Part shown: positions 1 through 49,269 of the stretch, piece by piece | Layout of the letters: the number at the start of each line of letters is the position of its first letter | Numbering within the stretch: the first letter of the stretch is position 1 | Assembly: GCA_021432605.1 (NCBI GenBank) | Contig: MU271147.1 | Span: 1,488,001 to 1,552,000, forward strand | Direction: 5' to 3' | Length of the DNA: 64,000 nt | Source of the DNA: Coniochaeta sp. PMI_546 | Taxonomy: Eukaryota; Ascomycota; Sordariomycetes; Coniochaetales; Coniochaetaceae | Translations under genes and position numbers: made by a program | Notes under the pieces: model-generated | What the model was told of the DNA's origin: nothing | The model's input: the letters and a program-made list of their open reading frames with translations, nothing else | Database searches by the model: none

Positions 1-237
1 CATTGTAGGACAGCACTCGGCCCATATGCTCGCGAAAATTCTCCAGCACGACTGACGTGACGTAAGAAAAGCAAGAATTTGCGTGCTGGAGCGGTATAAC
101 TTCATAGCGTCACTACAGTTGGGAAGTCGCCTTGATCCTCCGCATCCCACAGCAACCGAGACATTCGAGCATACTCAAACTCACAATTGCACTCCCTGCT
201 TTACACCTCTGCCCCATCTTGTGACTCTAAGTGTACA

Positions 238-1362
238 ATGGCTTCCACACTGGCAATCACCTTCGCGGAGCCCTCGTCCGATCCGTCAAACGTCATCCGT
301 TTCCACTACGACGCAACAGACACCGTCAAGCCTGGCCCCGGTCAGGTCCTCGTCTCCTATGTTGTGTCACCCATCAATCCGCAAGACAACCTCGTCATTG
401 CTGGCCGCTACCCCGTCAAGCCGCTCCACACCCACAACGGCGAGCCCGTCCCAGGCTATGACGGCGTTGCCCGAGTCCTCGCAGTAGGACCGTCCACTGA
501 CGGGGTTCTCCAGCCGGGTGACCTTGTCATCCCCCGCCGTCATGGGCTCGGCACATGGCGAAGCCGTGCCGTCCTCGAGTCCAAAGACGTCATCCGTCTG
601 GGGCCCACAACAGACCCGGTGGCAGCCTCTCTCTTCCGCATGGCCTTCCTGCCCGCCTACCTTCTGGTGGAGGACATGCGCTCCCTCAAGCCGGGTGACT
701 GGATCATCCAAAACGCCGCGTCTGGTACCATTGCCCAGCTGGTCGTCCAGTTCGCCCACCTCAAGGGCTGCCGCGTCGCTAGCGTGGTGCGTGATCGTGC
801 CGCTGCGCAAATGTCAACTCTGCAAACAGGTGCAGATGTCGTGATCACAGAGTCGGACCTCAAAGCCAAAGGTGCCGATGCACATCCCAACTTAGCTGAA
901 GCTGTCGCCCGCGGCCGAGTTGTCCTGGCCCTGGACGCCGTGTTTGGCGAGTCGGGCGAGCAGATTGCAAACCTGCTCGCAAAAGGCGGCACCTATGTCA
1001 ACTACGGCTCGCTCGGCGGCGCGAACGGCGTGATTCGTCTCACGCAGAAGCTCATCTTCTGGAACGAGATTGCATTCCGTAATTTCCGTCTTACGGCACA
1101 GCTGGGCTTGAGATCTCCGGCAGAGATAGAGACGTTGTTGGGATGGTTTGAGGAACTGGTTGCAAACAAGCAAGTGGTAGTGCCTGTTGTGGAGAAAATT
1201 AGTGTTCCACGTCCAGGAGAGGGGGTTGATGTTGTATCGCACTTTGAAGAATTGGTGCGGAAAGCACTTCGTCCGGGGGTTACAGTTGGTGCGAGGAAGC
1301 AGGTACTTGACTTTGGAGATGGGAGGGAGTACCTCAAAGACAAGGATGCGAAGCAAGATTAG
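238..1362 (+). CDS. MECR/ETR1-like trans-2-enoyl reductase (zinc-type alcohol dehydrogenase superfamily)
   Basis: A single exon encodes about 374 residues from the ATG at 238. An in-frame ATG at 187 would add 17 residues with no clear signal, so 238 is preferred. The N-terminal GroES-like part carries SPINPQDNLVIAGRYPVKP, which resembles the INPxDxNxIxGxYP signature of mitochondrial 2-enoyl thioester reductases. It is followed by the PGYDGVARV and LQPGDLVIP turns. The Rossmann part has QNAASGTIAQLVVQFA where this family keeps NxANSxVG. Family members reduce trans-2-enoyl-ACP or enoyl-CoA with NADPH, in mitochondrial fatty acid synthesis or, for cytosolic paralogues, in secondary metabolism. 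No strong mitochondrial presequence is visible. It lies 3.3 kb from the NRPS and on the same strand, so a tailoring role is possible but unproven. The superfamily call is firm; the substrate is not. Confidence 0.82.
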   Translation: MASTLAITFAEPSSDPSNVIRFHYDATDTVKPGPGQVLVSYVVSPINPQDNLVIAGRYPVKPLHTHNGEPVPGYDGVARVLAVGPSTDGVLQPGDLVIPRRHGLGTWRSRAVLESKDVIRLGPTTDPVAASLFRMAFLPAYLLVEDMRSLKPGDWIIQNAASGTIAQLVVQFAHLKGCRVASVVRDRAAAQMSTLQTGADVVITESDLKAKGADAHPNLAEAVARGRVVLALDAVFGESGEQIANLLAKGGTYVNYGSLGGANGVIRLTQKLIFWNEIAFRNFRLTAQLGLRSPAEIETLLGWFEELVANKQVVVPVVEKISVPRPGEGVDVVSHFEELVRKALRPGVTVGARKQVLDFGDGREYLKDKDAKQD

Positions 1363-1847: not shown

Positions 1848-2543
1848 TTAGTCGGTATACTGCTTCTCCTTCTCAATTGCCGCCGCATTATACTTCCTCA
1901 GCATATCCTCCAGGCCCGGAATAGGCGGATCATAGTCGATCCGGCAGCTATTCATCATCCGAGCCAGCAGACTATATACGCCATGCGTGTAGAACAACTC
2001 CATAATCTCTTCGTCACTGAACTTGGTCTTCAACGCCTCCATCGTCTTCAGATCCACCTTGTTCTTAGAGCTGAGCTGGTCGACAAACTGCCCAATCAGC
2101 CGCTGCCGCTCAGTGAAGAGGCTCTCAGGCAGTGGGTTCTTCACGTCACGGAGAGCAGCGAAATGTGCGTCGGTCATGCCGAAGATCTTCGCCACGGGCT
2201 CGTTGACGTCCCACTCGTAGGGCGCGTCGAGGGTCGCGGCTGTGCGGAGCACGGTGAGCTGCCATTCAGTCGAGCGGATCTTGCGGTCTTTGGCCCACAT
2301 TGTCGTTAGGAGGGCCATGAAGGGCTTGAAGGAGACGGTGCCATTTGCGAGGAGCTAGACTGTAAGCTCATTGCTTTACACACTTTAGCAGAATCGATGG
2401 CGGTAATTAGTCCTTACCTTGAAAACATTGCGCTCGAACGGCAGTGTTTGTAAGGCCGCCTTGATGTCTGGGGGCGCCGTGTTTGAATCCACATATGGGA
2501 GCAAGTGCTCGTTTGTCACGGTATGGTTATCCCAAGTCGCCAT
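1848..2543 (-). CDS. AhpD-fold / carboxymuconolactone decarboxylase-like protein
   Basis: Two exons, complement(1848..2354, 2418..2543), encode 210 residues. The 63-nt intron has a gtaagg donor and a ctag acceptor in phase 0. The protein starts MATWDNHTVTNEHLLPYVDS. Its core (MALLTTMWAKDRKIRSTEWQ, then APYEWDVNEP) matches the helical EWxxxxLRxAxLxxxxYEW pattern of fungal AhpD-like/carboxymuconolactone decarboxylase proteins. The CxxC pair of true AhpD peroxidases is absent, and Asn replaces the usual His after YEW, so peroxidase chemistry is unlikely. Such proteins often sit beside fungal secondary-metabolite genes. Here the gene runs away from the NRPS and shares a 2.1-kb divergent intergenic region with it. 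Function is unknown. Confidence 0.82.
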
Positions 2544-4653: not shown

Positions 4654-7600
4654 ATGCGCTTCACCCACAACAGTGATCTACACCTCCCCTTGAACGACCT
4701 CCTCGACTTCAAGGTACCCCTCGATACGCCAACCCCGTGGGAGGAAACTGAAGAAAACCAGTTCTTCTCCCAGGCCGAGGACACCTATCCCGCCACCAGA
4801 ATCCAGTGCGAGATCGCACAAGAGCCGGTACAATGGGCCAAATCCGAGCTGAGTCTTGGGAGAGGCCGCTATACGGACCTCAGCCCCATCATCAATGCTT
4901 GGAGGGCTCTAGCGTCGTACCACTCATGCCTCCGTGCCACCCTTAGTCGGGATCCAGCCACCGCACAACTCAATGTGGTGGTCTACCGACGCATCGAGGA
5001 TATCGTCCCGCCTGGAAATCAGAACAAATACACGGATGACCGATTAGCACACCTCACTCTCGAGACCTCACCGAGAGGCAAGCTCAAGCTTTACCTCAAC
5101 TTCCGCCGGGCTCTCATCGACGGAACATCCCTCAAGCGGATCAGCCATGACTTTGGTCTTCTTCTCCGCGACCTCCCACCGCTTGAGCACACCGGGTTCG
5201 GCTCTTATCTCCGCTTCTTGTCGAACTTGAGGAATAGTGATGAGTCGCGAGAGTTCTGGGCAAAAACTCTTGGTGATGCTGTTCCTCGTCCCCTGTTCCC
5301 CCACAGTTCGGCGACCAAGCCAGCAGGTGGTGAGAAAGTTGGTACAAGGAAGTCCATCACCGAGATCGTTGACAACCTTGACCTACCTCGGGATATGCGC
5401 ATGAGTCGCCAGATGTTTTTCGAGCTTGTCTGGGCGCTCGTGCTCCGATCACATACCGGTTCTGACGATGTGATGTTTGGTGCCGTTCGACGAGATCCTT
5501 ATTTCGTCGGAGTCGAGAACTGCATCGGAAATCTTGATCAGACGTATCTTGTCAGGCTTGCCACGTCCAAGGACGATCTGATTAGGACCATCGCTACGAA
5601 GCTGCAGCAGTTCCATGACACTGGTGCAAGCCATGCATTCGTGGGCCTTGACGAGATCAGACGCCATCTGCCCACTGGCGTCAATGTGGAGTCGGTTGTC
5701 ACCTACTCCCAGATCGCTAGGTCACCACACATTGCACCAGGTCTGGTCAGCTTTCCTGTCGTCTTGAACATCTGCGATAGCCGCGTGCTTGCAGTTACGC
5801 TCACTCACTCCGATGAGATTGACTCATCCGCAGCCGAGGTTCTTCTGCAGCACTACGTCGCAGCCCTACGAAGTGCGGCTGTTGTTAAGAACCTAGAGAG
5901 CGCCCCCTGCACATCCATCAGCCTGATCTCAGATGCAGAGAGGTCCGAGCTTCTTTCTCGGGCAGGTACAGGCAAGTCGGCTGTGTCTGGCACTATCACA
6001 TCCCTTTTTGAAGAGGCCGTGGCCCTCAATGGCTCCAAGGTTGCAGTTGAGTTCGGAGGAGAGAAGAAGCTAACATTCGAGGAGCTCAACTCACTGGCGA
6101 ACTCTGTCGCCCACACCTTGAAACTTCCCAAGGGTGTCATTGTGCCTATTCTGATGGATCGTTCTTTGGAGCTTATCGTCTCCATCCTAGCCATCTTGAA
6201 ATCGGGTGCCGCCTACACTGTCCTGGATCCGGAAAGCCCAGCCACACGCCTCAAGCAGGTTGTCGATGACTGCTCACCTCCTGTTGTTATCGCTCACCGA
6301 AAGTACAGCCACATGTTCCCGCAAGCCAGATCTATCGAGGACATCCTTTCCGCGGCCCAGTCCAGCCCCAGCACCTACTCCAGCAGTCCAGATGTCGACA
6401 TCAGGCCTGAAGACAAGTGCTACATCATCTACACCTCCGGCAGCACAGGCAAGCCCAAGGGTGCTGTGCTCACACATGGAGCGGCCGCAAGTGGGATGGC
6501 CAACCACACCCTGAGCGGCCTGTCGCGGTGGCTGCTTTTCTACAATCCCTCCTTCTCGGCAGCCCAGCGAACCATGCTCTCCACCTTGGTTCACGGCGGT
6601 ACGCTCTTGATCGCCAGCAAAGACAAGATGGCTACCGATCTTGCCGGTGTCATCAATGGCCTCCAGGTTGACGCCTTGGGCATTACCCCGTCAGCTTTGT
6701 CCTTGCTCCGGCCCGCCGATGTACCAAATCTGAAGCAGGTGATTCTGGTGGGCGAAAGAATCCCAGAATCTCTCGTCGATACTTGGGCAAGTGCCAACGT
6801 CAAGGTGCGCAATACATATGGCCTGAGTGAGTGCACACAGCTCAACTTTGGCCGCCAACTCGAGCCAAAGGGCAATCCGAGGGTGGTCGGCAATCCGGCT
6901 GATACTACGTCGGCCTACATCATGCAGCCTGGAAGCCTAGAGCTGTGCCCGACAATGGTAGCTGGCGAGATATGTCTGGCTGGTCCTCAGCTGGCGTCTG
7001 GCTACCTGAATCAGCCAGAGCTGACTCGGAAGGTCTTTGTCGACAATCCCTTCGGGCCTGGCAAACTCTATCGGACGGGTGACATGGCGCGTAGACTTCC
7101 CGACTTCCAAGTCGAGATTCTGGGACGGCTTGACCTTCAAGTCAAGATCAATGGACAGAAGGTGGAGCCGGCAGAGATCGACCGCTGCTTGTTGGAGCAT
7201 GAGGCAGTGTCTGCTTGCGCCTCTGTTGCAGCTGAGATGGACGATGGCCATGTCGTTCTTGTAGCAGCCTTAGTCCTAGCTAAGGGTCGCAGTCTGGATG
7301 CCGAGCTACCCTCGATCCGACAACATATACGCTCGAGGGTTCCAGGCTATATGGTCCCTAGTTATTGGCTGCCACTTGACGACATCCCGAAGAATGCAAA
7401 TGGGAAGACAGACTATCAGAAGCTCAAGACAATGGTCCGAGAACTGGGGATCTCTGGTCTTGCTCGCCTCCTGGCGACCGGAAACGACCAAAGCGCTCCT
7501 CTGAGCGAGGCCGAGGTCAAACTCGCCAAGGTATGGGCGTCCGTCCTCGGCATCGACTTGTCGGTGATAGGCCGTCAGAGTTCCTTCCTGGCTCTGGGAG

Positions 7601-9501
7601 GCAACTCTCTTCAAGCGATCAGGGCCGTCTCGGAGCTCCGTCGGGTTGGTCTTGTCGTCGATTTTGCCTCTATCCTCAGCGACGAACCCTTGGAGAGGGT
7701 TGCCGCGGCGTCTCAGCCATCAAAGGGTGAAGAAGATCAAGAGGTTCCGCCATTCTCCCTACTGGGCGACTCCGAAAGTGCCTCGCGGCTCTCAAAGACG
7801 CCCGGGGTGGTGGATGCTTACCCGGCCACGCCATTCCAGGCTGGTCTGCTCACGTCGATTGACAGCGACTCGGATCCTTACACGTATCAGCGCGTCTGGG
7901 ACATCCAAGGTCTAGATATCGGCAGGCTCCGGGACAGCTTTGAGCAAGTCTTCCATGCGCGGGAGATTCTACGGACAGGATTCATCCCTCACGGAAAGAC
8001 ACTCTTGCAGGTCGTCAAGAACGACTGGACCTTGCCGTGGCAGGAGACACAATCCTTTCTCGAAGAATACGTGGCACAGGACAAGAAGCAAAAGCTTTCT
8101 CTATCGGGACCTCTCCTCCGCATCGCTGTTGTGTCTCAGAAGTACCTCGTTGTCACCATGCACCACTCCCTCTTCGACTTCTGGTCTCACAGCTTCTTGT
8201 ACGAAGACGTTGCTGCCGTCTACCAGGGCAAGGAGATTCCACACCGCCCGAAGTTCCAGAAGTTTGTCCAGCATCTTCTCAACCAAAACAAGTCTGAGAG
8301 CCTCAAGTTCTGGAAAGAGTATCTTCAAGATGCGTCTCCGTCCTGCCTGAACTATGCTCCGGTGCTTTCGCGCGGTCGGGTCCAGACACAGCTCAAGGTT
8401 GCTCTGACCGAAGAAGCACGGGCATTGGGACTTAGTGCGGGTGCAGTTATCTACGCGGCTTGGGCGACCTTGCTGTCCCGACACCTTGGCACGCAGGACG
8501 TTGTTTTCGGCACAACACTATCCGGAAGGGAGGCGCCAGTCTTGGACATCCAGAAGATGGACGGTCCGACCATGACCACCGTGCCACAACGGATCAAGGT
8601 GGACCCTGATATGTCTTTGGTCCAGTTAACAAAGGCCGTCCAGTCTCAGTTCCCCAGTGTCGTCAAACATTCTCAGGTCGGCTTGCAGGAGGCCCTTCGT
8701 TCGGCGAATGCTCAACCTGGGCTGTTCGACACCCTTGTGAATATTCTGGTGAAGAACGAAGACGCTGGGGGGAATGTGCAGACGATCTTCAGGCGTCATG
8801 GGAAGCGTCAATTCTGGGACTCCGAGTTCGTTGTCCTCGAGGTGGAAGAGTCACGGGGTGAAGGAAGCACTCAAGTACGGCTCGCTGGTGATATGGAGCA
8901 GCACAGGCTCGAGTTCCTGACCCAGTCGTTCTCAGCCATCGTCCAAGCGATTCTCCACAGCCCTGACAAGAAGACTGGTGAGCTCGATATCATGGGCGCG
9001 TCTGAACGGACTTACCTGGCCGACGTGCTCTCCAACCGTGCCACGCTACATGCCCCTGCTCCAGAGCTCCTGCACGCCGCTTTTGAGAGATGGGCTCAGG
9101 AGAGCCCAGCCACGGTGGCGATCGACTGGGAAGGGGTACGACAGGTTAGCTACAGCGAGCTCAACAGCCTCGCCAACCAGGTCGCTCATGCGCTCGTCGA
9201 GCGTGGTGTCAAGCCGGGAGACAATGTGCCATTGATGCTGCGCAAATCTGTCGACACCATGGTCAGCCTTCTCGGAGTGATGAAAGCTGGGGCCGCCTAC
9301 GTTCCGTTGAACCCTGACAATCCAGTGCAGCGGAACAGCTTCATTGTCGAGGACACCTCTGCGAAGCTCATCATCATCCACAAAGAGTACGTCGACTTCG
9401 TAGGCTCGGTCCCCGGCCTCAAGGCCTTAGTCATCGACGACGTCTCCCTCACCTCGCTGCCCACCCACCCTCCAAGCGTCCCTGTCTCGCCCGACCATCT
9501 T

Positions 9502-9533
<32 letters not shown>

Positions 9534-12204
9534 ACAACCAAAAGGCGTCAAAGTCCCCCACCGGTCCGCGGCCGCCGCCGTGACCAGCATGGCAACCGTC
9601 GAAGGCCGTTATATCGGCACCTGGCGCACCCTGCAATTCGCCAACTACGTCTTCGATGCCTCGGTGCAAGACTTCTTCAACACGCTCTCCACGGGCGGTA
9701 CGCTCTGCATGGCGCCCACCGAGCGTCTCCTCTCTGACATCGTGGGCTGCATCAACGCCATGGACGTCAAACAGGCTATCATCACGCCCACCGTTGCACG
9801 GCTGTTTAAGCCCGCTGATGTGCCCGGGTTCGAGAAGCTGATTGTCGGGGGCGAGCCGCTCACTCACGATGTTGTGGAGATGTGGAAGCCGAGATGCCAG
9901 ATACTCAATGTCTATGGGCCGACTGAGACGAGTATGGTCGTAACCACCAAGGACGTGCAGCGTGGTGGTCGGATTGGAAATATCGGTGCGCCATTCCCGA
10001 CCGTGATGGCGTTCATCCTTGCGCCCGATGGGCAGAAGTTGGTGCCGTACGGTGCGGTGGGCGAGCTGTGCATCGGCGGGCCGCAGGTCACAGCCGGGTA
10101 CGTGAACCGGGACGATCTGACCAACGCCGCGTATGTGTCAAACGATGAGCTCGGACTGCGGCTCTATCGAACTGGTGATCTCGCTCGCTGGCTACCGGGC
10201 GGCGAGATCGAGTGTCTGGGGAGGAAAGATAACCAGGTCAAGATCCACGGACACAGAATCGAGTTGGGCGAGGTCGAGAGCGCAATCCGGAAGACCGGCC
10301 TGGTCAAAGATGTGGTCGCGCTGGTCTCCAAGCTTGACAACAACCCGCGGCTTGTCGCTTTCTGCATCTTCCGCGAGGAGGAGGGTTCGAGTTTCCAGGA
10401 CGTAGGGGAGCATATTGACTCCTTCGCCGCCCTGAGGGAAGGGCTCGGCTCCCTGGCCACATACATGGTGCCTAAGTTCGTCATCCCCATGGGCTCATTC
10501 CCGAAACTACCCTCACGGAAAGTGGACAGGAAGGCCTTGCAGAAGAAGCTTGAAGAGCTTGGTTCGGTGGAGCTTGGCCGCTACGTGCTTGAAACAGTGA
10601 CCGATAGCCACGAGGTGGTACCCACGGAGACACCCGCCGAGGAAGCACTGGAGCGCATGTGGTCTGAGCTGTTCAGCATTCCCGCCAGTCAGATCGGACG
10701 GGAAGCCAACTTCCTCACGCTTGGGGGCGACTCCATCTATGCCATCAGCCTGGCCAGCATGGCGCGCCAGGTAGGGTATACCCTGAGCGTGCCGAATATT
10801 CTACGGTTCCCGAAGCTGAAGGATCTGGCTGCGACAATGCAGCAGGTGGCGGGAGGTAGCGCAGCTGAGAGCCGCGTCTTCGAGATCTCACCGGCGGTAC
10901 AAGAGAGCCTGGACGCTGCCGAGATGAAGCTAGGTGAAGATATCGAATACGTCTACCCTTGCCCGCCAGGGCAAACTGAGTTCCTCACCCAAGGCAGCCG
11001 CCTAGACCAGATGTGGGTTCTCCAGACCATCAGGCGGATGCCCGCATCGGCAGATCCGGAGCGTTGGCTGGCAGCGACTCGTGCCCTCACAAAAGCCAAC
11101 GACATCCTGCGCACGACCTGGCTCCAGGACTCCACAGGCGAATGGGTCGGCTGTGTCCTCCGCAACACCAACCCAGACGTGGTCAAAGTCCCATGCCGCG
11201 ACGACACAGACGCCACTGTCGTCGCGGAGCGCATCTGGGCTGAGCGCTTCGCCTTCCCCAATTCCTTCATCCGGTATGCCATCTTCACCTATCCGAGCGG
11301 CGAGTGGGATATCCTCATCAAGATGGACCACGCGGTCTACGACGGGACACTTCTCCGCGTCTTTGACGCCCACTTCGCCGCCATCCTGGCAGGTCAGCCC
11401 ATCCCGCCGCACACCGAGTTCAAGGACTTCACCACCTTCGCCTACCAGGCGCCCAAGGCGGAGTCTCTCCGACACTGGACCGCTACGCTCCAGGGCAAGA
11501 CACCCGACAAGCTCCTGGCCCGCAACCCCACCCCCAAGATCACACAGTTCGTCAAGGAGGTGATCCCCACCCCCGGCATCGACGAAGCAGCCAGCGCCCT
11601 GGGCGTGACGTCCTCCGTCCTCTTCCAAGGCGCCTTCGAGCTCTGGATGTCGCGCTTCAGCACCTCGACCGACGTCAACTTCGACTACCTCATCTCCGGG
11701 CGCAACGTGTCCCTGCCGGACCCGCAGTCCATCAACGGCACGCTGGCGACGTTCCTCCCCGTCCGCTCGCGGCTCGACAGGGCGCAGACGCTGCCGCAGT
11801 TCCTGGGCCGGGTGCAGGACGACTTCTGGGACATGACGGAGCACGCGGACGTCGGTCTCGACGAGATCTACCGGGCTTCCGGGCTGAGCAGGGAGGTCTA
11901 CGGGAACTCGGTGCTGTTCCTGTTCCAGCCTTTCGACCCCGCGGCGGAGGCGCAGAGCAAGCCGGAGGACCGGTGGCTTGTCATGGCTAAGAGCAAGGTG
12001 CGGATGTTCCAGCCTTACGCGCTGGTTGTCGAGGTGGCCAAGGCGGTGGGGAAGGCCCACGTGTTGAAGGTGATGTATGACCCTGGTATGTTTGATCGGG
12101 AATTTGTCGGGAGGATTGTGAGGGAAATTGATCAGATTGTTAAGAAAATGATTGAGAATGTTGAGAAGGGCGAGCAAGGAAGGGTTGAGGAGCTTTTGGA
12201 CTAG
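4654..12204 (+). CDS. Bimodular nonribosomal peptide synthetase, C*-A1-T1-C2-A2-T2-C(terminal)
   Basis: One uninterrupted exon encodes 2,516 residues. An N-terminal C domain (about 45-440) has Arg151-Arg152 where HH is required (RRALIDG) and looks inactive. A1 (about 450-935) has YTSGSTGKPKG near 592. Ser635 aligns with the Asp235 that binds the alpha-amino group, and its A5 motif is NTYGLSE. T1 has LGGNS with Ser985. C2 keeps HHSLFDF (His1170-His1171, Asp1175). A2 (about 1455-1960) has Asp1668, YGPTE and the A10 Lys near 1956. T2 has LGGDS with Ser2027. The last C domain has DHAVYDG (2225-2231), like fungal cyclising terminal C domains. By alignment to GrsA I read rough codes S-A-R-G-I-V-T-Q-L-K for A1 and D-A-Q-I-I-G-V-M-V-K for A2. 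The layout recalls fungal anthranilate-using synthetases (AnaPS and TqaA types). I infer that A1 loads a non-alpha-amino acid and that a cyclic dipeptide such as a benzodiazepinedione is released. There is no TE or reductase domain. The product is unknown. Confidence 0.95.
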
Positions 12205-12324: not shown

Positions 12325-13770
12325 TCAATGGAAGATACGCTTTGAATCCTTAGGCTCCTTATGGAGGCGCGTGTGCCCGGAGTCATCTTCAGTCGTCAAT
12401 ATCTTGTGGCCTGCAATCTTCTGCACAGAGGTCTCTGGTAAATCTGGCAAGGGTTTCGAGGTAGGATCAGATGGGTCATGGTGTACTGGACCGTTCTTTA
12501 CCCGATACGGGTCCAACAAGCCTGGACTCAGCTGATTACCCTTCGTCTGATGTTCGGTCCTCTGATGTGCCTCCACCGGATGTTGGTCGGCGGGTTGCCG
12601 ACTAGCTCGGTGAACATGGCTGTCATCCGCTTGCCCTTGGTGAACCGAATGGTGGTGTCCCTGGCGGATGCCCCGTTCATTATAGGACTGCCCTTGATTT
12701 GACTGGTCTTTCTGGACTTGTGTATTGTGTAGCTGCCCCTGGCTTCCTTCATTCCAGTTCGCCAAGGAATGGTCGTGGCCTTGGTTTGCCTGGTATTTGT
12801 TGTTCTCATGCGCGGCTGCCAGGTGTCGATGTTCCTCAACCTGGCCCTGGCGTATCTGGTTCGCATGGTTCGAGCTCGCCTCATTCTCATTGACCGCATA
12901 GTGGTCGGCTGTGTGTTGGTTTACCAAGGGGGTTATGTAGCCTTGGGAATGGCCTTGATCGATGGGTTTTCGGGGGATCTGATGATGATCCGCGTCTTGT
13001 TGGTGCACATGGCTTTGGTGCACGTGGCCAGGGCTAACCTCACGATGGCTGACCAAGACTGGGTTGGACGAGGTATGGCTACCATGACTGATCTGGTCTT
13101 GCTCCACCTGTCCTACACTTACATACCGTTGGTCCAATTCAGGTTGGTGCACCTGGGTTTGGTAGACCTGCTTCACTTGAGCTGGAATCACCTTGGGTTG
13201 GTTGATCGAGGTGTGTTTGACGGTGTCCGCGAACTGGGTGGACGAGCTTTCCCGGGGTTGATCCACGGTGCCGTGATTCATGTGCTCCAGATTCGCCTGC
13301 TGGGTCTGGGTGAATCCGGCTGTGCTCGCCTGCCCCTGACTCCACGCAGCGCCGCTGTAGACATCTTTCTCGTCGACCTGTATGAGGCGGCCGTCGGGAC
13401 CGGGCACCCAGTGCCGCGCAGGCAGGACCTCAACATCTCGAACGGGCAGAATTTTGGTGTAAACGTCGTGTGTGTGAGTTTCGCGTGTGATGTGTTCCTC
13501 GATCTGTTCGTGTACGACCGGCTTGACTACCTCCTTGGTAACGGCTACGCAGGTAAATCGATGTCAGTCAGACATGTCTATTTGTCAAAGTGAGCAGAGG
13601 TCACACGACTTACCCGGAGCGTATGTTGTCTTCCGATCTACATCCTCCGTATTGTTTAGATCTAGTGCACCATCCAACTCTTTCGCTAATTTCGCTACCA
13701 TACTGGAGGTCTTCTCATCACGAGCCTCGTGTCCGCGTGTCGTCGACGACGCATCGTTATTAGAAGACAT
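12325..13770 (-). CDS. Hydrophilic 'allergen-like' protein with long Gln/His/Asn-rich tail
   Basis: Two exons, complement(12325..13544, 13614..13770), encode 458 residues. The intron is 69 nt (gtaagt donor, cgtag acceptor, phase 1). The N terminus is MSSNNDASSTTRGHEARDEK. The second exon opens with VTKEVVKPVVHEQIEEHITR and continues VYTKILPVRDVEVLPARHW. This matches the repeated H/E/V-rich core of fungal proteins annotated as 'allergen', and the neighbour at 15307 has the same core. After about residue 110 the chain becomes low complexity, with many QGH, NQG and HxVHQ units (for example IRQGHHHSVHQGQ), and it ends in a basic segment before FH. No signal peptide, membrane segment or enzyme motif is visible. 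It is probably a disordered, heat-soluble, stress- or spore-related protein by analogy. That role is inferred. Confidence 0.75.
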
Positions 13771-15306
13771 GTTTTGGGATTAAAAGCAGCTTTGAGTTTA
13801 CTTTAACTTTGGCTTGTTGTTCATCTAACCGTCCATACAAGGATCGAACTGGTTTGCTTTGATTTTGAGTTGAGAGGAAGAGTGTAGTTGGTCCTGGGCC
13901 TTCCACTACAATAGGTCCACTGAGCAGGTCTAGGCCAGGTACAACGTCATCATGTCTTAGCGGCACGACTTCCTGGTGACGGATGATTCCCTCATTCTTG
14001 GTGGCCCAGCGGCAAGGCCACATAGCTGACCTCCGCTTCGAAGCTAGCTGTCCAGCACTTCTGGGAACCAGAACCTTGTTTCCAGTACTCCATGAGGCAA
14101 TAAGGATATACTGACGACAATGTCATGCCGACCACGTATACTGTTCCCAGTGGGGAACCTTTAGATATTCAGACGAGTGAATACATAGTACGCGCGAGAG
14201 GTGTGGGGGGGCGGGCTTCTGGTCGTGCGGCTCACACAGTTTCCGGTCGGGAACCAGCCAATGAGTAGCGTACGGCGCACACTGGTGGCCGCACCGGCTG
14301 CAGTCAATCAGATCACCAAAGCTCCGATGCTGTCCAGATCTTGGCAGGGATAGGATCGATGTTCACTGGAGTGGTCCGGACTATTTTGGACGGGCGCTCG
14401 AGATTGGCGTTGGTCTGGACAGGCCGATTTGAATGACCCACAATAAAACGTCATGTCTCCTCAGACGATTCCAGCCATTCAAGGAACTTCATTCCACTGC
14501 CGTCAATCCAATCAGCTTGGCACAGCTTTCACTGGTTCTGGGGAACCAAGGTAGGTGGTCTATAACGCTATTCCCAGGCACATTATGCAAGCGTCACCAA
14601 CAGCAGCTCACCCCATTCTTTGTTTCCTTTTAGTGTTACACTGCTGTTACCGTGCATTTGTAGCAATAGAGTGACGTTGTGGCTAGAGGAGGCATGAGCC
14701 TCAAACAGGGTTGTAGCTCCAAGCTAACAGGCGATCGAGAGATCCATTACGACACTGGGTCCATTTTAGATGCTTTCAGCTCCTCGGCCTCTCTCCTGAG
14801 GTAGCAAAGCTGTGATAGCTCCGTAAGTATGCTCCGGGTGCTTAGCGTGCGCAGCGGGCTCCGGGTGGAGTGATTTTCGTGGGGTTGCTGTTGTGCTTTC
14901 CATGGTCCCTGCAATGGCCTCAATCCACCAGCAGACTTGGTAAGGAATGCATAGTCCGCCGATTGTAACTATGTGAACGACCACTATGCTATGTCACCAC
15001 TGCTGGTTAGCTATTACCCTGCCAATTATGAGCTTACTGAAAGCGGGCAGGCCGCTCCACCATGTGCGTCAAGGCGCCGCTGACGATTGTACTTGTCGTC
15101 ATGCATGCGATGACGAAACCACGTCTGATGTCTCCTTGGAGAAGATATATTGTCTTGAGTTCATCTTCACCAGCACTTGGTCTCTCCTCCATCTCATCCT
15201 CATAATACTCAATTCATCAAATAATCTACACACGCTCGCAGCTCACATCTCACAACTCTCTCCACCTTGACCCTTCTTGCCAGACTACCACAACTCACAC
15301 ATCAAA
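13771..15306. promoter_or_regulatory. Divergent promoter of the two allergen-like genes with repeated GGGAACC
   Basis: This 1.5-kb region separates two diverging genes of the same family. GGGAACC occurs at 14063-14069, 14153-14159, 14249-14255 and 14541-14547. The second is part of the near-palindrome TTCCCAGTGGGGAA (14144-14157). No coding signal is seen. Shared regulation of the pair through this motif is an inference. Confidence 0.4.
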
Positions 15307-16230
15307 ATGGACAAGACCAAGCAAGCAGTTAAGGACTTCATGTCCAAGGCCGGTCATCACGACACCACTGTCCACGAGCAAGTCGCTCCAGCAGTCAAGC
15401 ACGAGACAGTCAAGCCCACTAGACACGAGGAAGTCACCACCGCCGTCGACAAGGAGGTTCACCAGGACCACTATCACCGTCAGATCCAGCCCGTCCATGA
15501 TCGCGAGGTTCTTCCGGAACAACACAAGCACAACGTCGGCGGCGTGATCAACCGCGAGTTCGACCACCGCAACCACGACGAGACCGAGCGCGCCCTCAAG
15601 GCAGAGGAGGCGAAGCTGAGGGATGAGCGCGTGGTCCACGAGACCAAGCACACCCAGAGCCGTGCTCCCGTTGTCGAAGGCGAGCATGTGCACCAGTGAG
15701 TTTATACCCGTGACGACCCCTTGGTTGACAGTAGTAAATACTAACTCCACTTTACCAGCCACGTTCACGAGACCATCCAGCCTGTCATCCAGAAGGAGGT
15801 CATCCAACCTGAAGTCGTCCACACCACCGTGCCCGTTCACGAAGTCCACCACAATTCTGCACAGCACCACGGCACCACAACCCTTCCTCCTGTTCACATC
15901 GACGAGTTCAAGAAGCAGGGTGGTGTCCTGACCGGCCGCCAGGAGCGCAGAAGCGAGTTCGAGGGTTGCCCGGAGGGAGTACACCACGACGGCAAGTGCC
16001 CAGAGGGTGCTCACCCTGGACACACGGCCGGTCACACATCCACACACTCTGGTCTCCACACCCGTGACAACACCACCACTGGCGTCAACCAGTCTGTCGG
16101 CGCCGGCCACACCGCCGATACCCACCATACCCACGGCACCACGGAAACGGGGAAGAAGCCCAGCCTGCTGGACAGGTTGAACCCGATGAAGGATGCTGAT
16201 CATGATGGAAAGAAGGGACTGATGGACTAA
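15307..16230 (+). CDS. Hydrophilic 'allergen-like' protein, His-rich
   Basis: Two exons, join(15307..15695, 15759..16230), encode 286 residues. The 63-nt intron has a gtgagt donor, a ctaac branch site and a ccag acceptor. The protein begins MDKTKQAVKDFMSKAGHHD. It has the family core VHEQVAPAVKHETVKPTRHE followed by HRQIQPVHDREVLPEQHKH, and then HETIQPVIQKEVIQPEVVHT. It ends in a Gly/Thr/His-rich region and the tail KPSLLDRLNPMKDADHDGKK. The conserved HEQVAP...REVLPEQH pattern defines a widespread fungal family named from allergen screens. Its cellular role is unsettled; a LEA-like desiccation or stress function is often suspected. It is divergently paired with the related gene at 12325-13770. 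A 377-codon open frame on the other strand is a shadow of its biased codons. Confidence 0.85.
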
Positions 16231-41643: not shown

Positions 41644-43499
41644 TCAAAGCCTCAAATCCCCTTTATTCCAGGCATACTGTCCAACCAGGCGGGTATCCAG
41701 TCTCAAAAGCAAACCCAACAACAAAACAAGGAACGAAATGACCACACCAACTACTAGGTTGAAATCCGAGCTCCAAAGAGGAGGCGCAAGTTTATCCATA
41801 GGGCTGGTAGTGCGAGTCTGCGGCACACCCGTGTTAGCCACGGCCGGCTCCTTGCCCTTCCATGGGATAGGGATCCCCTTCTCCTCAAGAATCTGCTCAG
41901 TCGTGATCCTCGCTCCGGCAAGGACGATCGGCACACCGGTGCCGGGGTGTGTGCTCGCACCGACAAAGTACGCGTTCTTCACGCCCTTGGCCTTGGTCTG
42001 CGGCCGGAAGGCGAGCACGTTCATGAAGTTGTGGCTCAGCCCGAGGATGGCGCCCTTGTCGAGGTTGAACTTCTCCTCCCAGACGGACGGGGTGTTGACG
42101 ATCTCGTGGGTGATCAGGTTGTTGAGGCGCTCGCAGCCCGTGCGCGCGCTAATGGTCCTAAGCACCGTCTCGCGGGCCTTGGCCACTAGGAAGGGCCAAT
42201 CCTGGTCTTTTAGTGAGGGGGCGACGGCGTCAGAGTCCTTGCCGCGGGACTTGAGGAGGTGGCCGACCGGCACGAGGGCGATGATCGCGTCGCGGCCTTC
42301 GGGGGCAGCGGTGGGGTCGATACGGCTGGGGACGTTGATGTAGAAGCTGGGATCGTGGGGGAGGGATTGGTCTTTGAAGATTGCATCGAATGACTCTTTG
42401 TAGTCGTCGGCAAGAAAGATGTTGTGCGTGCCGAGCTCCGGGATCTTTTTCGACACGCTCCAGTAGAAGGAGATGGAGCTGCAGGAGGCGTCCTTCTGGC
42501 GGAGCTTGCGGCTGTAGTCGGATATCTCGTTGGAGTCGGGGAAGAGGTTGCTGTAGGAGTACACCAAGTCTGCGTTCACGACGACGATGTCGGCGCTCAA
42601 CCTCTCGCCATTCTCGAGCTCGACGCCATTCGCCGTCTTGCCATCGGCAGTGGTCAGGATCTTGCGAACCGGCGCGCGCATTCGGTACTCGACACCGAGA
42701 CTTTGGCCGATCTTCACTAGCGCGGCGAGGATGGTTTGGAAGCCGCCCTTGGGGTACCAGATACCCTCTGCCAGTTCGGTGTACTGCAGCAGACTGTACG
42801 TGCTCGGCGCATCAAACGGGCTCATGCCCATGTACATGGTCGCAAATGTGAAAACCCGCCTCAGGCGCTCAGTCCAGAAATACCTTGTCGTGCGACTCCA
42901 GATACTCTCGAGCGGATGCAGCCTCACACCATGCCAGACGAACTTGGGGCCGGCCAGCTGCCAGATGCTCGTAAAGTTGCGCCGCAGCACACGCGCCAGG
43001 CTGATCTCGTAGTGGTCGTGCGCCTCGGCCTTCCACTGCAAGTAGCGCCGGAAGCCGTCTTTGCCTTCCCAGCGCTCGATCTCGCGCTTCATGACGGCCT
43101 CGTCGGGGGTGCTGCGGAAGCGCTCGCCGTCGGCGAAGAAGATGTCGTAGTTGGTCGGGCACCGCAGAAGCTCGACGCCCGCGGCCTCGAGGCTGCTGTC
43201 GAGCTCGTGGAATGTCTCGCGGAAGAGATTGGGAAGGAGGAGAAGGGAGGGCCCTTGATCGAAGCGGTACCCGTCTGAGGTGTGCATTAGGCTGCAGCGG
43301 CCGCCGGCGAAGTCGTTCTTTTCGAGGACGGTGACCTCGAGTCCGGCTTTGGCGAGGCGTGCGGCTGCGGCTATGCCGCCTGCTCCAGCTCCTGCGATGA
43401 TAGGGCGGTTAGCGCTGTGCTTGACGGTAGGGGAAATGTGCGATGGCAGGAATGTTTACCTATGACGATGGCCGTCAGAGGCTTCGTCTTATTGTCCAT
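41644..43499 (-). CDS. Phytoene desaturase (AL-1/CarB type)
   Basis: Two exons, complement(41644..43391, 43460..43499), encode 595 residues, the same length as typical fungal AL-1 proteins. The 68-nt intron splits the dinucleotide-binding motif: MDNKTKPLTAIVI joins GAGAGGIAAAARLAKAGLEV and then LEKNDFAGGRCSL. Further family blocks are YRFDQGPSLLLLPNLFRETF, WYPKGGFQTILAALVKIGQS and FVGASTHPGTGVPIVLAGAR. A C-terminal membrane anchor lies at LVVGVVISFLVLLLGLLL. The enzyme introduces four or five double bases' worth of desaturation (double bonds) into phytoene to give lycopene or 3,4-didehydrolycopene, using FAD at membranes. It is followed on the same strand by the phytoene synthase/lycopene cyclase gene, 1.1 kb upstream, as in Fusarium and Mucorales clusters. 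Confidence 0.96.
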
Positions 43500-44600
43500 G
43501 ATGAGTGAGGTTGTTGTTTTCAGTGGACCAGCAGTGAAGGAATTTGGTGATGCGCTCTCTAAATGCCTAGCAGCAAGAGGCCTGATAGTGAGAAGATGTC
43601 TGATGAGATCTGCAAGCAGGCGGAGGTGAATTTTGAGGCAGAATAGAATCGTCCCAAGCAGCTTCACATATGTAGCTCGTCGATATTATGAAGGGATCTA
43701 GAATTTAGTTGATGATGCACACAAGCACATGTCAAGTGTCGACGAGCTCGAGCTTTAAGGCGTGCACGTGGAAAGGATGGGTGTTTACGGGTCCTCCTCT
43801 TTGTTGTCTTACCGATGTCTCAAGCTCCAGGTACGGAGGTTCACTCTAGCTTCGATGTCTACCAAACACCACATTCACTAAGACGTACGAACCCGACATC
43901 GAATGAAGTACCTGTACATCACCAACAGGCCAAGAAACGCTAAGGCAGTGTGCCCCGTCCTCCAGCCTGATAACATGTCGAATCCTTTGCCATGTGGCTG
44001 GCTTTTCGGACTCGCATTCTGAACCGAGCCTCCGCAGGTTGCGAATGCGATGTGGTGTAAGCGTAGTTGAAGCCGGATCCATGACGGCATCGATCCGAGG
44101 CGCCAGGGGAGTGTCGAATCCTTCTCCAAAGCTACCCCAATTTGGTAGCTCCTGTCCCTTGCTGTTGCATGTGGATATTTTCAGATCTTTGATCGACGCT
44201 AAAAGGCGGGCTGGCGATGCTAGGTTTGGATGACAATCCGTCTGAATCGAATTGCTCGCTTACACGTCTGGTAGAATATTCGAAGAACAGAAACACGCAA
44301 AGCAGGCGACAGAGCACTCAGATGAGCCGTGTAATTTCGGTTCGACCGCAGTGCATATGGGATACATTGGTGATTTTGCAGGTCGAATGAGGGGTGCTTG
44401 ATTATCTCTTGAACGTAGTCTACACAATATGCAATATATACATTCTATTGAAAGTGTTGAACCGAGAGTAGCCTCCTAAGCGCCGCAGAACATGCGAGTT
44501 CCATCATCAGGACGTGCAGAGAAATTAAGAAAAACTAGATCTCAAGGAATAGTCGACATGCTATTCATTATCCGTTCCTCGCACCGTAAGAGCCTCAGCT
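43500..44600. promoter_or_regulatory. Phytoene desaturase promoter and 3' flank of the cyclase/synthase gene
   Basis: A 1.1-kb region with no gene recognised. By analogy with known carotenoid clusters, light-response elements are expected upstream of 43499. I could not assign one with confidence. Confidence 0.45.
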
Positions 44601-46512
44601 TCAGGAGCTCATCAGTGCTTGCGCCGCAACCCAGAGTCTCCGCTTGGCTGGAACGGTCGCCCTGCGCGAGTCCCTCACCTCGAGGAAGTCCCGTTCCCGC
44701 AACACGCGCCCAATCTCCATGTAGTTCTCGACAGCGACGATCATGGGGCCGCGCGCCTGTTGAGGGATCAATTGCATGAGAGGGCGCGAGTGTCTGTACA
44801 TCGCGAAAGCCTCACTCAGCAGCTTCTCTTGCAGCCGGGCAATCTCAGGACGGAAAGTACTCTCAATGACCATTTCTGGCGTCACGCCTTCTTCTTTAAG
44901 CCAAGATGTGGGCAGATACACGCGGTTGATATTGGCGTCGGTGGTGATGTCGCGTGCGATGTTGACGTATTGAAGGGCAATCCCCATCTCTCGGGAGGAG
45001 TCGAGGAGGTCGTTGATCTGCTTGGAGGTGAGGTGGGCTCCGCAGTGGTGTACGATGAGGGCGACACAGAGCTCTCCAACTGTTCCAGCAACACGGCGAG
45101 CGTATGCGACGAGATCATTCTCGTCTTGTATAGGGAACCTCTCCTCGCGTTCGACGTTGAACTGCGAGTCCATCCGAAACCCGTCAATCAGTAGGTAGAG
45201 AGGTTCGCCGGGGAGGATGTGAGTTGGAAGGAGCGTCAGAGCTGATCTCGCTGACGCGGGAAACTCTTGTTCAATAAACTGCGTCAGCCTGGCATGGTCG
45301 ACATTCTGTCGATGCACAGGGTTTTGAGCTTCCTTGTCATAGACATAGTGAAAATCGAGGTACTGGATCAGTTTCGCTACCCAGGCCTTGATCTCCTGCT
45401 CAGTCGTCGCGTTGTCGATCAGATCATCAGCCATGCGGCAAAAGGAGTACCTATCAGCATGTTAGGGACATGAGTCGTGCGTAGAGAAGCGCAGGCAACG
45501 TACAGGAGAACAAGGTCGATGCGCAGCCGACCGGTGAAGGCGGAACTTGCGAGGTAGAAGCTACGGCTCTTAGCCTTCAGACGCTTCACAGCCTCTTGAA
45601 TCCCTTCGATCCTCTCCATGTCGTACTCTTTAGTACCGGTGAACCGGCCCTGAAGCAGCATTAAAGGAGTCGGCGATTGGGGTACTTCCGGGAAAAGGTG
45701 CGGAAAGGCGTAAATAACAGCCAGATATTGGTCGAAAGTGGCCAGTCCGAAGACAATAAGCGTATTGGTGACGAGGAAGAAGGTCGCTTCTTCGATCTCG
45801 AGGACGCCAAACAGACATAGGCCGAGCTTCGTCCCGCTCTCTATTGACCAAGTACCCCTTCCCAAAGCGAGTTCGTCTACCAACCAGAGATAGACTGTCG
45901 GAAGGAGGATGGGGAGAGCAGTACAGGCGAGCGGAAGGCTTATGATGAAACGGCCGGCCATTGTCCATGTTATCAGAGCAAATGGACACGCCCATACGAG
46001 AATGAGTCCAATATACGTGTACTCGCGGCCAACGTTGACGCAATAAGCGCCATACAGAGTGATTCCAGCCAGGAACAGCTGGCCGACGAGCTTTGTTACG
46101 GCAATCCATTTCGCAGCGTCGCGCTGACTTCTGAGGTATTTGGCGTGCAGCAGGGGCTTATTGAATAGAATGTAGATGAGCGAAGTGATGTAAGTCTGGA
46201 TGATGAAGAAGAAGAGCTCCTCGTATGGGATGCCCATCCACTTTGGACCGATAATGACTTCAGGCGGATAAGTCCATACACCAGTTTGTATCAAGTAAGA
46301 GTCCCATGGAAGAGTGGCCGAAAACGCGAGGATGATGAGGGCCGCGATTTGGAATAGATGTATGCGGGTGAGAATCGGGTAGGATATTAGTGTCAAGAAT
46401 ACTGCAAGAGGTATCGTGAATTTCAGGTGCCTAGAGAATCATGTTAGCCACCAGTCAAGACACGTGGAATAGCAGAAAGGAAACCTTACACGATGGCATA
46501 GTCGAACGCCAT
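44601..46512 (-). CDS. Bifunctional lycopene cyclase/phytoene synthase (AL-2/CarRA type)
   Basis: Three exons, complement(44601..45450, 45504..46430, 46490..46512), encode 599 residues. Introns are 59 and 53 nt. The first exon (MAFDYAIV) leads into [20 protein letters not shown]. The N-terminal half is the membrane-bound R-type lycopene cyclase with [20 protein letters not shown] and [18 protein letters not shown], two EExxFF-like motifs among about six or seven hydrophobic segments. The C-terminal half is phytoene synthase: [14 protein letters not shown] spans the second intron, and [18 protein letters not shown] is the second Asp-rich motif. It condenses two geranylgeranyl diphosphates to phytoene, and the cyclase half closes beta-ionone rings after desaturation. 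With the neighbouring desaturase it is enough to make beta-carotene or torulene. Confidence 0.96.
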
Positions 46513-47740
46513 GATGCCGGGCTTGGGAGGGTGTTTGTTGATCTACAGAGTCGACCGTCTGAACCCTTGATAACGCGGTGTTAGTTGAGCCCAAACAAAA
46601 TATTGTTGATGCGATTGCAGTTGCTAGGAAGAAGCTTGGCCTTCTTGACTCGTTATGATACACGCCGAACAAGGTGAAGTACGTGCGGAACCTGCACACT
46701 TACCTCTGATAAGGACCGTCAACTGACGCACTGATACAGCGAGCACAACAGCACCCGTACAAGCCTATGTTGACAACGCAGGGAGGGCAAATGGTGGCGG
46801 GAATGTGACGAATATTATGTTATTTGGCGTAAAGGCAGAAAAGAGACACGTTCTTGTTCGAATTCTACACGAGCTTGCCAGGCGGAATGTGCCACATCTC
46901 CAGCAGGAGCGTTGAGGGAAGACGGGCCAACATGCCAGATGGAACGACCCCTGAAGCTAGAGACCATAGAAGACTTCCCTCGCAGACCGCCGTTCACCAG
47001 AAAGGAACAATCATCAGGCCGAACCAGCCACCCGCTCGGAGCGATCATGAAGCAACATGCCCACTTGGGCATAGACTGTCAACATCGTAGTGTCACCGAA
47101 TCCCTTAACAACTTGAAACGATTGACTGGAAGCGAAGTCGACGTTGGAATGGTGATGTCATCGACTTTTGACAGAAAGGTACCAGGACTTGGGGCCGAAG
47201 TACACGCGCGGACAAGGACGAAGGAGGGGCGATAGGCAAATCCTAGGCAGTCAGTCCAATGCAGGTTGGCCGCTAGGCGTTTTACACGTGTAGATCACGC
47301 AAGGGGAGCGGCTGGAGGCATGTTGAACCTTTCACGTACTATGTACACATAAAGTGCACGTGTAGAAGGTCGCTTGATTGTAGGACAGAACATTCGATCT
47401 CTGCTTCGAATCAAGGGACTATTGGATCGAATTTCCCAATCGCAGGCATTGTCGATCAATAGATCGCACTAGAACGAAGATGGACTAGCGTCTTTTGCTC
47501 CAAACACAGCACAGACCTTCTCCAACCGTGGTACCCAGCTGTGGCACCAACTGGCGGTACGTACCCCTGTAGATCCTGGAAATGAGGCTCACGATGTGAT
47601 TGGTCGATTGTTTCCTGTCAACTTTCACGCCCCTGCATTTGGAAGTTGCGAACGACTTCAGTGACAGCCTCGGCTCCACGATTTTGACTTCAGTGACTGC
47701 AAGGTTTTGCACGCACCACTACGAAGCCCGCGCAACAGCA
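46513..47740. promoter_or_regulatory. Divergent promoter of the cyclase/synthase and thioesterase-like genes
   Basis: 1.2 kb with no gene recognised. CACGTGTAGA occurs twice, at 47285-47294 and 47357-47366, offset by 72 bp. This could be an E-box-type regulatory repeat. Confidence 0.45.
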
Positions 47741-48811
47741 ATGGCACTACATATGCCGTTACGGCGGCAGCACCATCTGCTACAGCTTGCCCCTACCGTA
47801 TGGCGACAACCACCCGAACTGACACGGATACCTAGTTGGTGCCGTGCGATACATCAAGCACAACAACAACCATCATCGCAATGGCTTCACCGGCACCATA
47901 ACTTCTCGACATCCTCCCCCCGTCGACAACAACAATCATCCCAAGAACCCTTCCCAACCTACTTCCAAGACGCACCTCTACCAACACCAACTTCGCCTCC
48001 TCCGCCTCCTCCTCCTCCGCCGCCCGCCCCAAAACCAAAACGCAGCGTCTTCCGGCGCGTCCTCTTCGCTACCGCCTTCCTCGCCCTAGGCAACCTAGCC
48101 GGCGGCGTCCTCGAGCGCTTCGCCAACCCCGCTCCCCCCGTCCCGAAGGACAGCCACCTCGACGACCTCCAGCGGCAGCAGATCCACCACCTCGCCTCGA
48201 AGCTCGACGTGGTGCAAGCCCTCGAGGAAGACCCGACCTGGGTGTCCTGGGACGCCTACGCCTCCTTCCCGCCCGAACAGCGCAGGACCCACATCGTCGC
48301 CTCATCCCTCTCCAGCTCGTCCGCTCTGGGCGCCTACCAGCGCGTCTTCCAGAACACGGAGACGGGCGAGGTCCTGGTCCTGATCTACTTCGGCCGCGGC
48401 GTGACGGGCTGGCCGACCGTCGTGCACGGCGGGGCGCTGGCGACTGTGCTCGACGAGACGTGCGGGCGAGCCGCCTTCGCCCGGCTGGGGCAGAGCGGGG
48501 GGGAGAAGAAGAGGCCCATCGTCACGGCTTGGCTGAAGCTGGATTACCTGGCCATGACGCAGGAGCGCGAGTTTTACCTCGTCGGGGCGAGGGTCAAGGA
48601 GGATGAGGAGTTGGAGGAGGCGGAGAGGGGGAAGAGGGACTACAAGGCATATGTGCAGGGCTGGGTGGAGAGCGTGCGTACTGGGCAGGAGACTGTCGTT
48701 GCTGAGGCCTTGTTTGTTGGGCCGAAGCCGAAGAAGGGGGAGAAAGTTGCGCTTGGGGCGGAGGTTGGGACGGGTAGGCCGCCGATTCTCCCGCCTGATC
48801 AGCGGTGGTAA
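47741..48811 (+). CDS. Mitochondrial hotdog-fold thioesterase-like protein
   Basis: A single exon encodes 356 residues from the ATG at 47741. An in-frame ATG at 47600 would add 47 residues, but the sequence after 47741 (MALHMPLRRQHHLLQLAPTV) has the Arg-rich, acid-poor profile of a mitochondrial presequence. A PTSPPPPPPPPPP stretch and a single membrane segment (VFRRVLFATAFLALGNLAGG) follow. The hotdog core has FGRGVTGWPTVVHGGALATV with the HGG of thioesterase helix 1, followed by LDETCGRAAF. The pattern resembles fungal UPF0644/Fmp10-like proteins and the THEM4/PaaI group. It may hydrolyse acyl-CoA at the inner membrane, although the catalytic acid was not confirmed. It is convergent with CRY-DASH. 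Confidence 0.83.
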   Translation: MALHMPLRRQHHLLQLAPTVWRQPPELTRIPSWCRAIHQAQQQPSSQWLHRHHNFSTSSPRRQQQSSQEPFPTYFQDAPLPTPTSPPPPPPPPPPAPKPKRSVFRRVLFATAFLALGNLAGGVLERFANPAPPVPKDSHLDDLQRQQIHHLASKLDVVQALEEDPTWVSWDAYASFPPEQRRTHIVASSLSSSSALGAYQRVFQNTETGEVLVLIYFGRGVTGWPTVVHGGALATVLDETCGRAAFARLGQSGGEKKRPIVTAWLKLDYLAMTQEREFYLVGARVKEDEELEEAERGKRDYKAYVQGWVESVRTGQETVVAEALFVGPKPKKGEKVALGAEVGTGRPPILPPDQRW

Positions 48812-49269
48812 GATACGGGCTTGGGTGTGTTTGGTACGTGGTGGCATTGAATTTGCGGAGCGTCGTATAGACTGGCGTGGACGGCGTTGACCTGCATAAT
48901 AGAGGGACAAGAGAAGCACCTGGTATCCATGGAGAATTCAAGCGTGGCACTGCTTTTCTGGTATCCATGTATATCAAGTCCAAAACATATCCTAGACAAA
49001 CTAAGAGGCTGAGACCTCGACAAGTGTAAGTCAGGCGATGTTGCTCTTGATAATGTCATGTGGTGGATGTGTATCAAACTGCTCCAGATGCCGACGAAAC
49101 AGATGCGAAGGCCGACGGCCGCAAAAGAAGGATGTCAGTTTAGCCCAGGTTATGGGGAAAAAAGCAAAGTGATTTTTGTAAGCAATGCTGAGAAGCGCGC
49201 AGATCTATTGATTGTTGTCCCACAGTCGTTCCCTACAAGAAAATGCCCCCGGGGTCGAATGCGGTCTCG
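48812..49269. other. Intergenic, convergent 3' ends
   Basis: 458 bp between thioesterase-like and CRY-DASH stop codons. Nothing was recognised. Confidence 0.55.

Follow-up and report, generated by a model that had tools for sequence, protein, structure and literature searches.

Domain organisation of the synthetase

A 64,000-nucleotide stretch of the Coniochaeta sp. PMI_546 genome (GenBank assembly GCA_021432605.1, 33.5 Mb in 24 contigs), namely positions 1,488,001 to 1,552,000 of contig MU271147.1 and hereafter called the window, contains a gene for a bimodular nonribosomal peptide synthetase (NRPS) whose first adenylation domain lacks the aspartate equivalent to Asp235 of GrsA. In the 2,516-aa protein, Pfam identified three Condensation, two AMP-binding and two PP-binding stretches. 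Together with motif placement and our own hidden Markov model (HMM), these gave the order C-A-T-C-A-T-C (C, condensation; A, adenylation; T, carrier domain). Neither a methyltransferase nor a ketoreductase was found by Pfam, and there were just two carrier stretches, with no tandem T2a-T2b. The features of the gene are given below in window coordinates, with pocket positions numbered as in GrsA.

4654..12204, + strand: NRPS gene, a single intron-free open frame of 2,516 aa, C1-A1-T1-C2-A2-T2-C3 (Pfam)
4786..5943, + strand: C1, N-terminal condensation domain, divergent (Pfam, motifs; ends approximate)
5104-5124, + strand: RRALIDG, the C1 counterpart of HHxxxDG, both His gone
5989..7428, + strand: A1, with Ser at the Asp235 site and code SARGIVTQL (alignments, AlphaFold model; ends approximate)
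6556..6558, + strand: codon of Ser635, equivalent to GrsA Asp235 (phmmer, MAFFT alignment, model)
6568..6570, + strand: codon of Arg639, equivalent to GrsA position 239; putative contact to a distal carboxylate
6811..6831, + strand: A5 motif of A1, NTYGLSE, with Leu724 (codon 6823-6825) in place of the usual Pro
7516..7713, + strand: T1, carrier domain, LGGNSL (Pfam, motif; ends approximate)
7813..9012, + strand: C2, condensation domain, HHSLFDF, second His kept (Pfam, motif)
9079..10548, + strand: A2, with Asp1668, code DAQIIGVMV and YGPTE (alignment, motifs; ends approximate)
10645..10833, + strand: T2, carrier domain, LGGDSI (Pfam, motif)
10972..12165, + strand: C3, terminal condensation-like domain, DHAVYDG, second His kept

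Absence of Asp235 and the A5 proline from A1

The first-pass annotation had placed Ser635 of A1 opposite Asp1668 of A2, and both residues were found as claimed; the segment FYNPSFSAAQ begins at 6538, three bases before the start quoted there. An Asp at the 235 site of A1 was sought in three ways, each of which returned serine. In a phmmer comparison with solved A domains, Ser635 lay opposite the Asp of both A domains of LgrA. A MAFFT alignment was made of A1, A2 and 34 other A domains of the same genome (the best 36 of 51 A-domain matches, the 15 weaker ones being left out), and Asp occupied the site in 34 of the 36, the exceptions being A1 (Ser) and the domain L040 (Asn). In the AlphaFold model of A1 (mean pLDDT 94.7), a helix spanning 635-646 begins at Ser635, and D235 of GrsA stands at the start of helix 2 (D235-L245; PMC2644324). 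The altered A5 motif was equally real, and A1 was alone among the 36 own-genome domains in lacking its proline. The motifs YTSGSTG, YRTGD, KINGQK and NANGKTD are all present and, because these other A1 motifs checked are intact, the A1 enzyme looks active. The L040 domain (G000:C16:183061-184860) has the code NHDKFGSIS and shares a 984-aa frame with a reductase domain, with a ketosynthase about 9 kb away; its locus is probably a polyketide synthase (PKS)-NRPS hybrid.

A wider set of 231 A-type stretches was aligned from the window and from 80 bacterial loci, which ranked as the best 80 among 501 confirmed candidates in likeness to A1 and are not a random sample. Both positions were readable in 213 rows (211 bacterial, A1 and A2), and Asp235 was present in 204 of them. 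The A5 proline was found in 178 of the 204 Asp rows and in none of the nine non-Asp rows, A1 counted; the association gave a Fisher p of 2e-7 with A1 left out. The variant YG[ML]SE occurred in four of the nine non-Asp rows (A1, L057, L102 and L126) and in none of the 204 Asp rows, one of which reads WGMSE. In each of the three bacterial cases the A domain comes first in a long open frame; the L102 and L126 frames are NRPSs without a ketoreductase according to Pfam, and for L057 the lack of a ketoreductase was seen by motif scan only. Part of the correlation between Asp235 and the A5 proline reflects the general acyl-ligase motif, since three of the nine rows that lack Asp (L085, L105 and L111) come from short frames in which no carrier motif was seen and a fourth, L092, is truncated where its locus ends. 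Since the alignments, the helix position in the model and the linkage of the two sites agree, we take the changes at Ser635 and in A5 to be more than chance or misalignment.

The A domains L102:3552-4973 and L126:7079-8419, which start NRPS frames of uncultured Clostridia and Lachnospiraceae, lack Asp235, have YGLSE or YGMSE and carry KINGQRVE, close to A1. They are likely to be non-amino-acid starters.

Published A domains without this Asp include hydroxy-acid domains with Ala or Gly at 235, such as EnSyn A1 with Gly, and the keto-acid domain StsA, in which the Asp and the A5 proline are both gone and an M415P mutant is inactive; McyG, with Val at 235, nevertheless activates Phe (PMC11253843). 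Because the A5 change is linked and such domains take hydroxy or keto acids, the A1 starter is likely, but not certain, to lack an alpha-amino group. The first-pass annotation had drawn this conclusion from the Asp; it gains from the A5 linkage and the published domains, and McyG shows that the rule is not absolute. On the McyG precedent, A1 might activate an ordinary alpha-amino acid despite the missing Asp, a reading compatible with the presence of its other motifs. We consider it very improbable, given that the A5 proline is lost too and that C1 is degenerate, as though the first residue needed no upstream partner.

A1 shares with StsA-type keto-acid domains the replacement of both Asp235 and the A5 proline (Ser635, Leu724), but a ketoreductase within the module, the other mark of that type, is missing from the protein by Pfam. 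A keto-acid reading from A5 alone was rejected: YG[ML]SE also occurs in the bacterial starter A domains without ketoreductase (L102, L126 and L057), and would thus mark non-amino acids in general.

The A1 pocket and its likeness to Lys2

The A1 pocket reads S-A-R-G-I-V-T-Q-L at positions 235, 236, 239, 278, 299, 301, 322, 330 and 331. Arg239 occurred in three of 215 rows, A1 counted, and Lys239 in six, three of which have the codes DAKDIGVVD or DAKDLGVVD, which we take to be glutamate codes. The own-genome Lys2 (contig C8), found by TIGR03443, reads HDPIQRDIF in the 235 region; in a joint alignment, Gln238, Arg239 and Val301 were common to A1 and Lys2, and Lys2 was also without the A5 proline. 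Lys2 activates alpha-aminoadipate, a diacid, at its far carboxylate, and the alpha-aminoadipate domain of ACV synthetase has Arg at 239. Because Arg239 is rare and is common to A1 and the diacid-binding Lys2, we suggest that Arg639 holds a distal carboxylate and that the acid taken by A1 would be a diacid. Lys2 differs in that it keeps Asp235 and continues with a reductase where the window NRPS continues with C-A-T-C; the common positions may represent convergence.

Other approaches to the substrate gave little. The nearest chains in a fold search with A1 were NRPS A domains; the top three, tied at Z 53.3, 52.6 and 52.5 (GrsA, 51.3), were TycA variants engineered to take a hydroxy acid or beta-amino acids, and the search is uninformative on the substrate. 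Among the 25 of 104 NCBIfam families listed, the acyl-CoA ligase models were split between A1 and A2 and were equally uninformative. The A2 code, DAQIIGVMV, points to no particular amino acid, and none of the literature matches listed named a pocket code for diacids.

The pocket also bears on the proposal in the first-pass annotation that A1 takes anthranilate or another aryl acid and that the product is benzodiazepinedione- or quinazoline-like. TqaA and AnaPS are not known to have an N-terminal C domain, and the window NRPS has one. The loss of Asp235 is a likeness to these enzymes and suits such a starter, whereas A1 has Ser at the site and not the Gly that is tied to anthranilate in PMC5238615, and Arg239 and Gln330 make its pocket polar.

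The condensation domains

A total of 266 C stretches were aligned, 245 of them with a readable motif. The second motif His was present in 230 of the 245, and Arg at this position was seen in C1 only. Both His of HHxxxDG being lost, C1 is probably not catalytic; it matched two solved sequences only, and weakly. The best solved relatives of C3, whose DHAVYDG keeps the catalytic His, were the terminal C (CT) structures of TqaA (5dlk; 52.8 bits, E 3e-13), which would suit an anthranilate-type product, and the next matches were bacitracin synthase 3 (50.2 bits) and surfactin synthetase (48.9 bits). As the margin of TqaA over ordinary C domains is small, the type of C3 follows mainly from its terminal place, from which the cyclising role given to it in the first-pass annotation is plausible.

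The enzyme could work with an inactive C1, given that fungal cyclodepsipeptide synthetases tolerate the deletion of C1 and only lose yield (PMC5674221). A starter without an amine would make C1 pointless and would fit its decay. The same synthetases suggest a depsipeptide route, in which A1 would take an alpha-hydroxy or alpha-keto monocarboxylic acid and C3 would close a morpholinedione or oligomerise units, as in enzymes of the enniatin/beauvericin type, where a deletable N-terminal C1 goes with a cyclising C3 (PMC5674221). The enniatin, beauvericin and bassianolide synthetases resemble the window NRPS in having a C1 that is dispensable for cyclisation and a terminal C domain and, in EnSyn A1, in lacking Asp235. 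The double loss in StsA (PMC11253843) and the best structural match of A1, a hydroxy-acid TycA variant, though tied, point in the same direction. These synthetases differ, however, in their tandem T2 and methyltransferase, neither of which Pfam showed here, and in the Gly of EnSyn A1 where A1 has Ser. A ketoreductase is likewise missing by Pfam, the A1 code is unlike the five codes that PMC5238615 lists for keto acids, and Arg239 would be unexplained with a branched aliphatic acid. We therefore regard the depsipeptide route as unlikely.

Phylogenetic placement of A1 and A2

Two trees of A domains were built, neither with true SidE rows, and in both the SidC and NPS6 labels were assigned from frame size and domain spacing. 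The careful tree comprised 36 A domains (16 of the 36 from this genome and 20 sampled bacterial ones) and omitted L040 together with four atypical bacterial rows (the starters L057, L102 and L126, and L085). A1 and A2 lay inside a fungus-only SID+EAS group (97/88, starred) and outside the peptaibol-plus-NPS6 (EAS) clade (100/100, starred); they adjoined the SidC-type A domains, weakly (63/59). The quick tree of 81 rows (all 36 own A domains and 45 bacterial ones) recovered the same fungus-only group (99) and the peptaibol-plus-NPS6 clade (100), and left A1, A2 and one SidC domain unplaced. According to published trees, SidE homologues group with SID (PMC2823734) and both sidE A domains cluster with intracellular-siderophore A domains (PMC6737921); module 1 of SidE is sister to the ferrichrome synthetases and module 2 groups with other NRPSs (PMC2644324). 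Our placement appears to agree with that of SidE in part.

The N-terminal C domain and the non-EAS placement suit SidE better than an anthranilate-type enzyme, although an EAS placement also passes the AU test (p-AU 0.34 and 0.38). Among the flanking open reading frames (ORFs) scanned, none had a family match to an enzyme that makes anthranilate, but introns may hide genes there. With neither a matching pocket nor, among the ORFs scanned, supply genes found, with no Gly in the code, with Arg239 and with the domain order of the SidE clade, the anthranilate or aryl-acid starter and its benzodiazepinedione- or quinazoline-like product were set aside as very improbable. Nor does a CT-type terminal domain imply a benzodiazepine, since AlSidE (A-T-C-A-T-CT) makes an azlactone (PMC11101550).

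A probable SidE-type synthetase with a proposed diacid starter

SidE proteins are described as C-A-T-C-A-T-C, and Afu3g03350 and Afu3g15270 of A. fumigatus as lacking only the first C (PMC2644324). The order obtained for the window NRPS by Pfam and our HMM is an exact match to this layout. We consider it moderately probable that the enzyme is a bimodular synthetase of the SidE type in which A1 adenylates a diacid without an alpha-amino group, most likely fumarate; the assignment compares published layouts and tree placement. Of the known enzymes of this clade, A. fumigatus SidE makes fumarylalanine, and AlSidE of A. lentulus yields a fumaryl azlactone and racemic fumarylalanine (PMC11101550). 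The window NRPS resembles SidE and AlSidE in its two modules and terminal C domain, in the probable lack of an amine in its first substrate and in the weak nearness of A1 and A2 to the SidC group; it differs in its N-terminal C domain, which A. fumigatus SidE and AlSidE do not have and other members of the clade do (PMC2644324).

The substrates, chemistry and product that we infer are as follows. A1 would adenylate a diacid, probably fumarate, and load it onto T1, with Ser635 removing the anchor for an amino group, Arg639 holding the distal carboxylate of the starter and the proline-free A5 loop reshaping the carboxyl end of the pocket. As the starter would offer no amine, C1, with both motif His lost, would have nothing to join and would perhaps only support A1. 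C2 would then form an amide between the acid and the alpha-amino acid loaded by A2 on T2, which is alanine in known SidE enzymes. By analogy with AlSidE, C3 would release the acyl-aminoacyl chain as an azlactone through attack of the amide oxygen on the thioester, and the azlactone would hydrolyse to an N-acyl amino acid.

Some results fit the SidE-type assignment less well. C3 seems hardly nearer to the TqaA CT than to ordinary C domains. An EAS placement is compatible with the data, for A1 (p-AU 0.336) as well as for A1 and A2 together (p-AU 0.378). Finally, A1 and A2 were sisters in the careful tree, without a star (89/84) and with no genuine SidE rows among the sequences, whereas the two SidE modules are not sisters in PMC2644324. 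A variant of the scheme would have A1 take another diacid (e.g., malate, 2-oxoglutarate or epoxysuccinate) and C3 release it as an azlactone in which alanine is replaced by a different amino acid; we rate this variant as rather doubtful. If true, it would mean a new reactive electrophile from a two-module enzyme, with Ser235, Arg239 and the proline-free A5 as a code for diacid starters.

Under the favoured SidE-type reading, the NRPS belongs to a known kind of enzyme, and what deserves testing is its pocket pattern. Should fumarate prove to be the A1 substrate, the combination of Ser235, Arg239 and an A5 loop without proline would provide a testable rule for azlactone-making synthetases, whose products are reactive and easily overlooked, in a setting where fungal A-domain codes are poorly predictive. 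It would also correct the habit of reading a missing Asp235 with a terminal C domain as anthranilate and benzodiazepine. No SidE-type enzyme of this fungus was among the literature matches listed, which is no proof of absence. A link to sorbicillactone, which joins sorbicillinol, alanine and fumaric acid (PMC10894215), was rejected, as no aromatic PKS with a terminal reductase was evident beside a second PKS in an exon-wise search, which is no proof.

Gene surroundings and other genome features

The following ORFs flank the NRPS gene.

136..1362, + strand: medium-chain dehydrogenase/reductase ORF upstream of the NRPS, putative link to the pathway (Pfam, NCBIfam)
1848..2354, - strand: ORF resembling carboxymuconolactone decarboxylases, a weak match (21.9 bits, cut-off 23), putative link to the pathway
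12325-13563, - strand, and 15271-16230, + strand: a pair of hydrophilic, repetitive ORFs rich in His and Gln and alike in style, shortly downstream of the NRPS gene

The two His/Gln-rich ORFs had no Pfam match in the parts scanned. They are followed downstream by ORFs for a kinase, the chitin-synthesis protein CHS5, ERCC4 and others, and upstream, beyond the window, lie an MFS transporter and SEN1. Among the flanking ORFs with a family match, none was for the supply of anthranilate, a hydroxy acid or fumarate; introns may hide genes here.

Elsewhere in the genome, two giant frames of 12,134 and 19,785 aa (G000:C20:316943-429967) contain 11 and 18 A-domain matches, the closest A domains of the two being about 21 kb apart; judging by size and module number, they are probably peptaibol-type synthetases. 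Within the window, the minus strand at 41644-51648 carries amine-oxidase (phytoene-desaturase-like), squalene/phytoene-synthase and weak lycopene-cyclase ORFs near photolyase/cryptochrome ORFs, and looks like a fungal carotenoid gene group.
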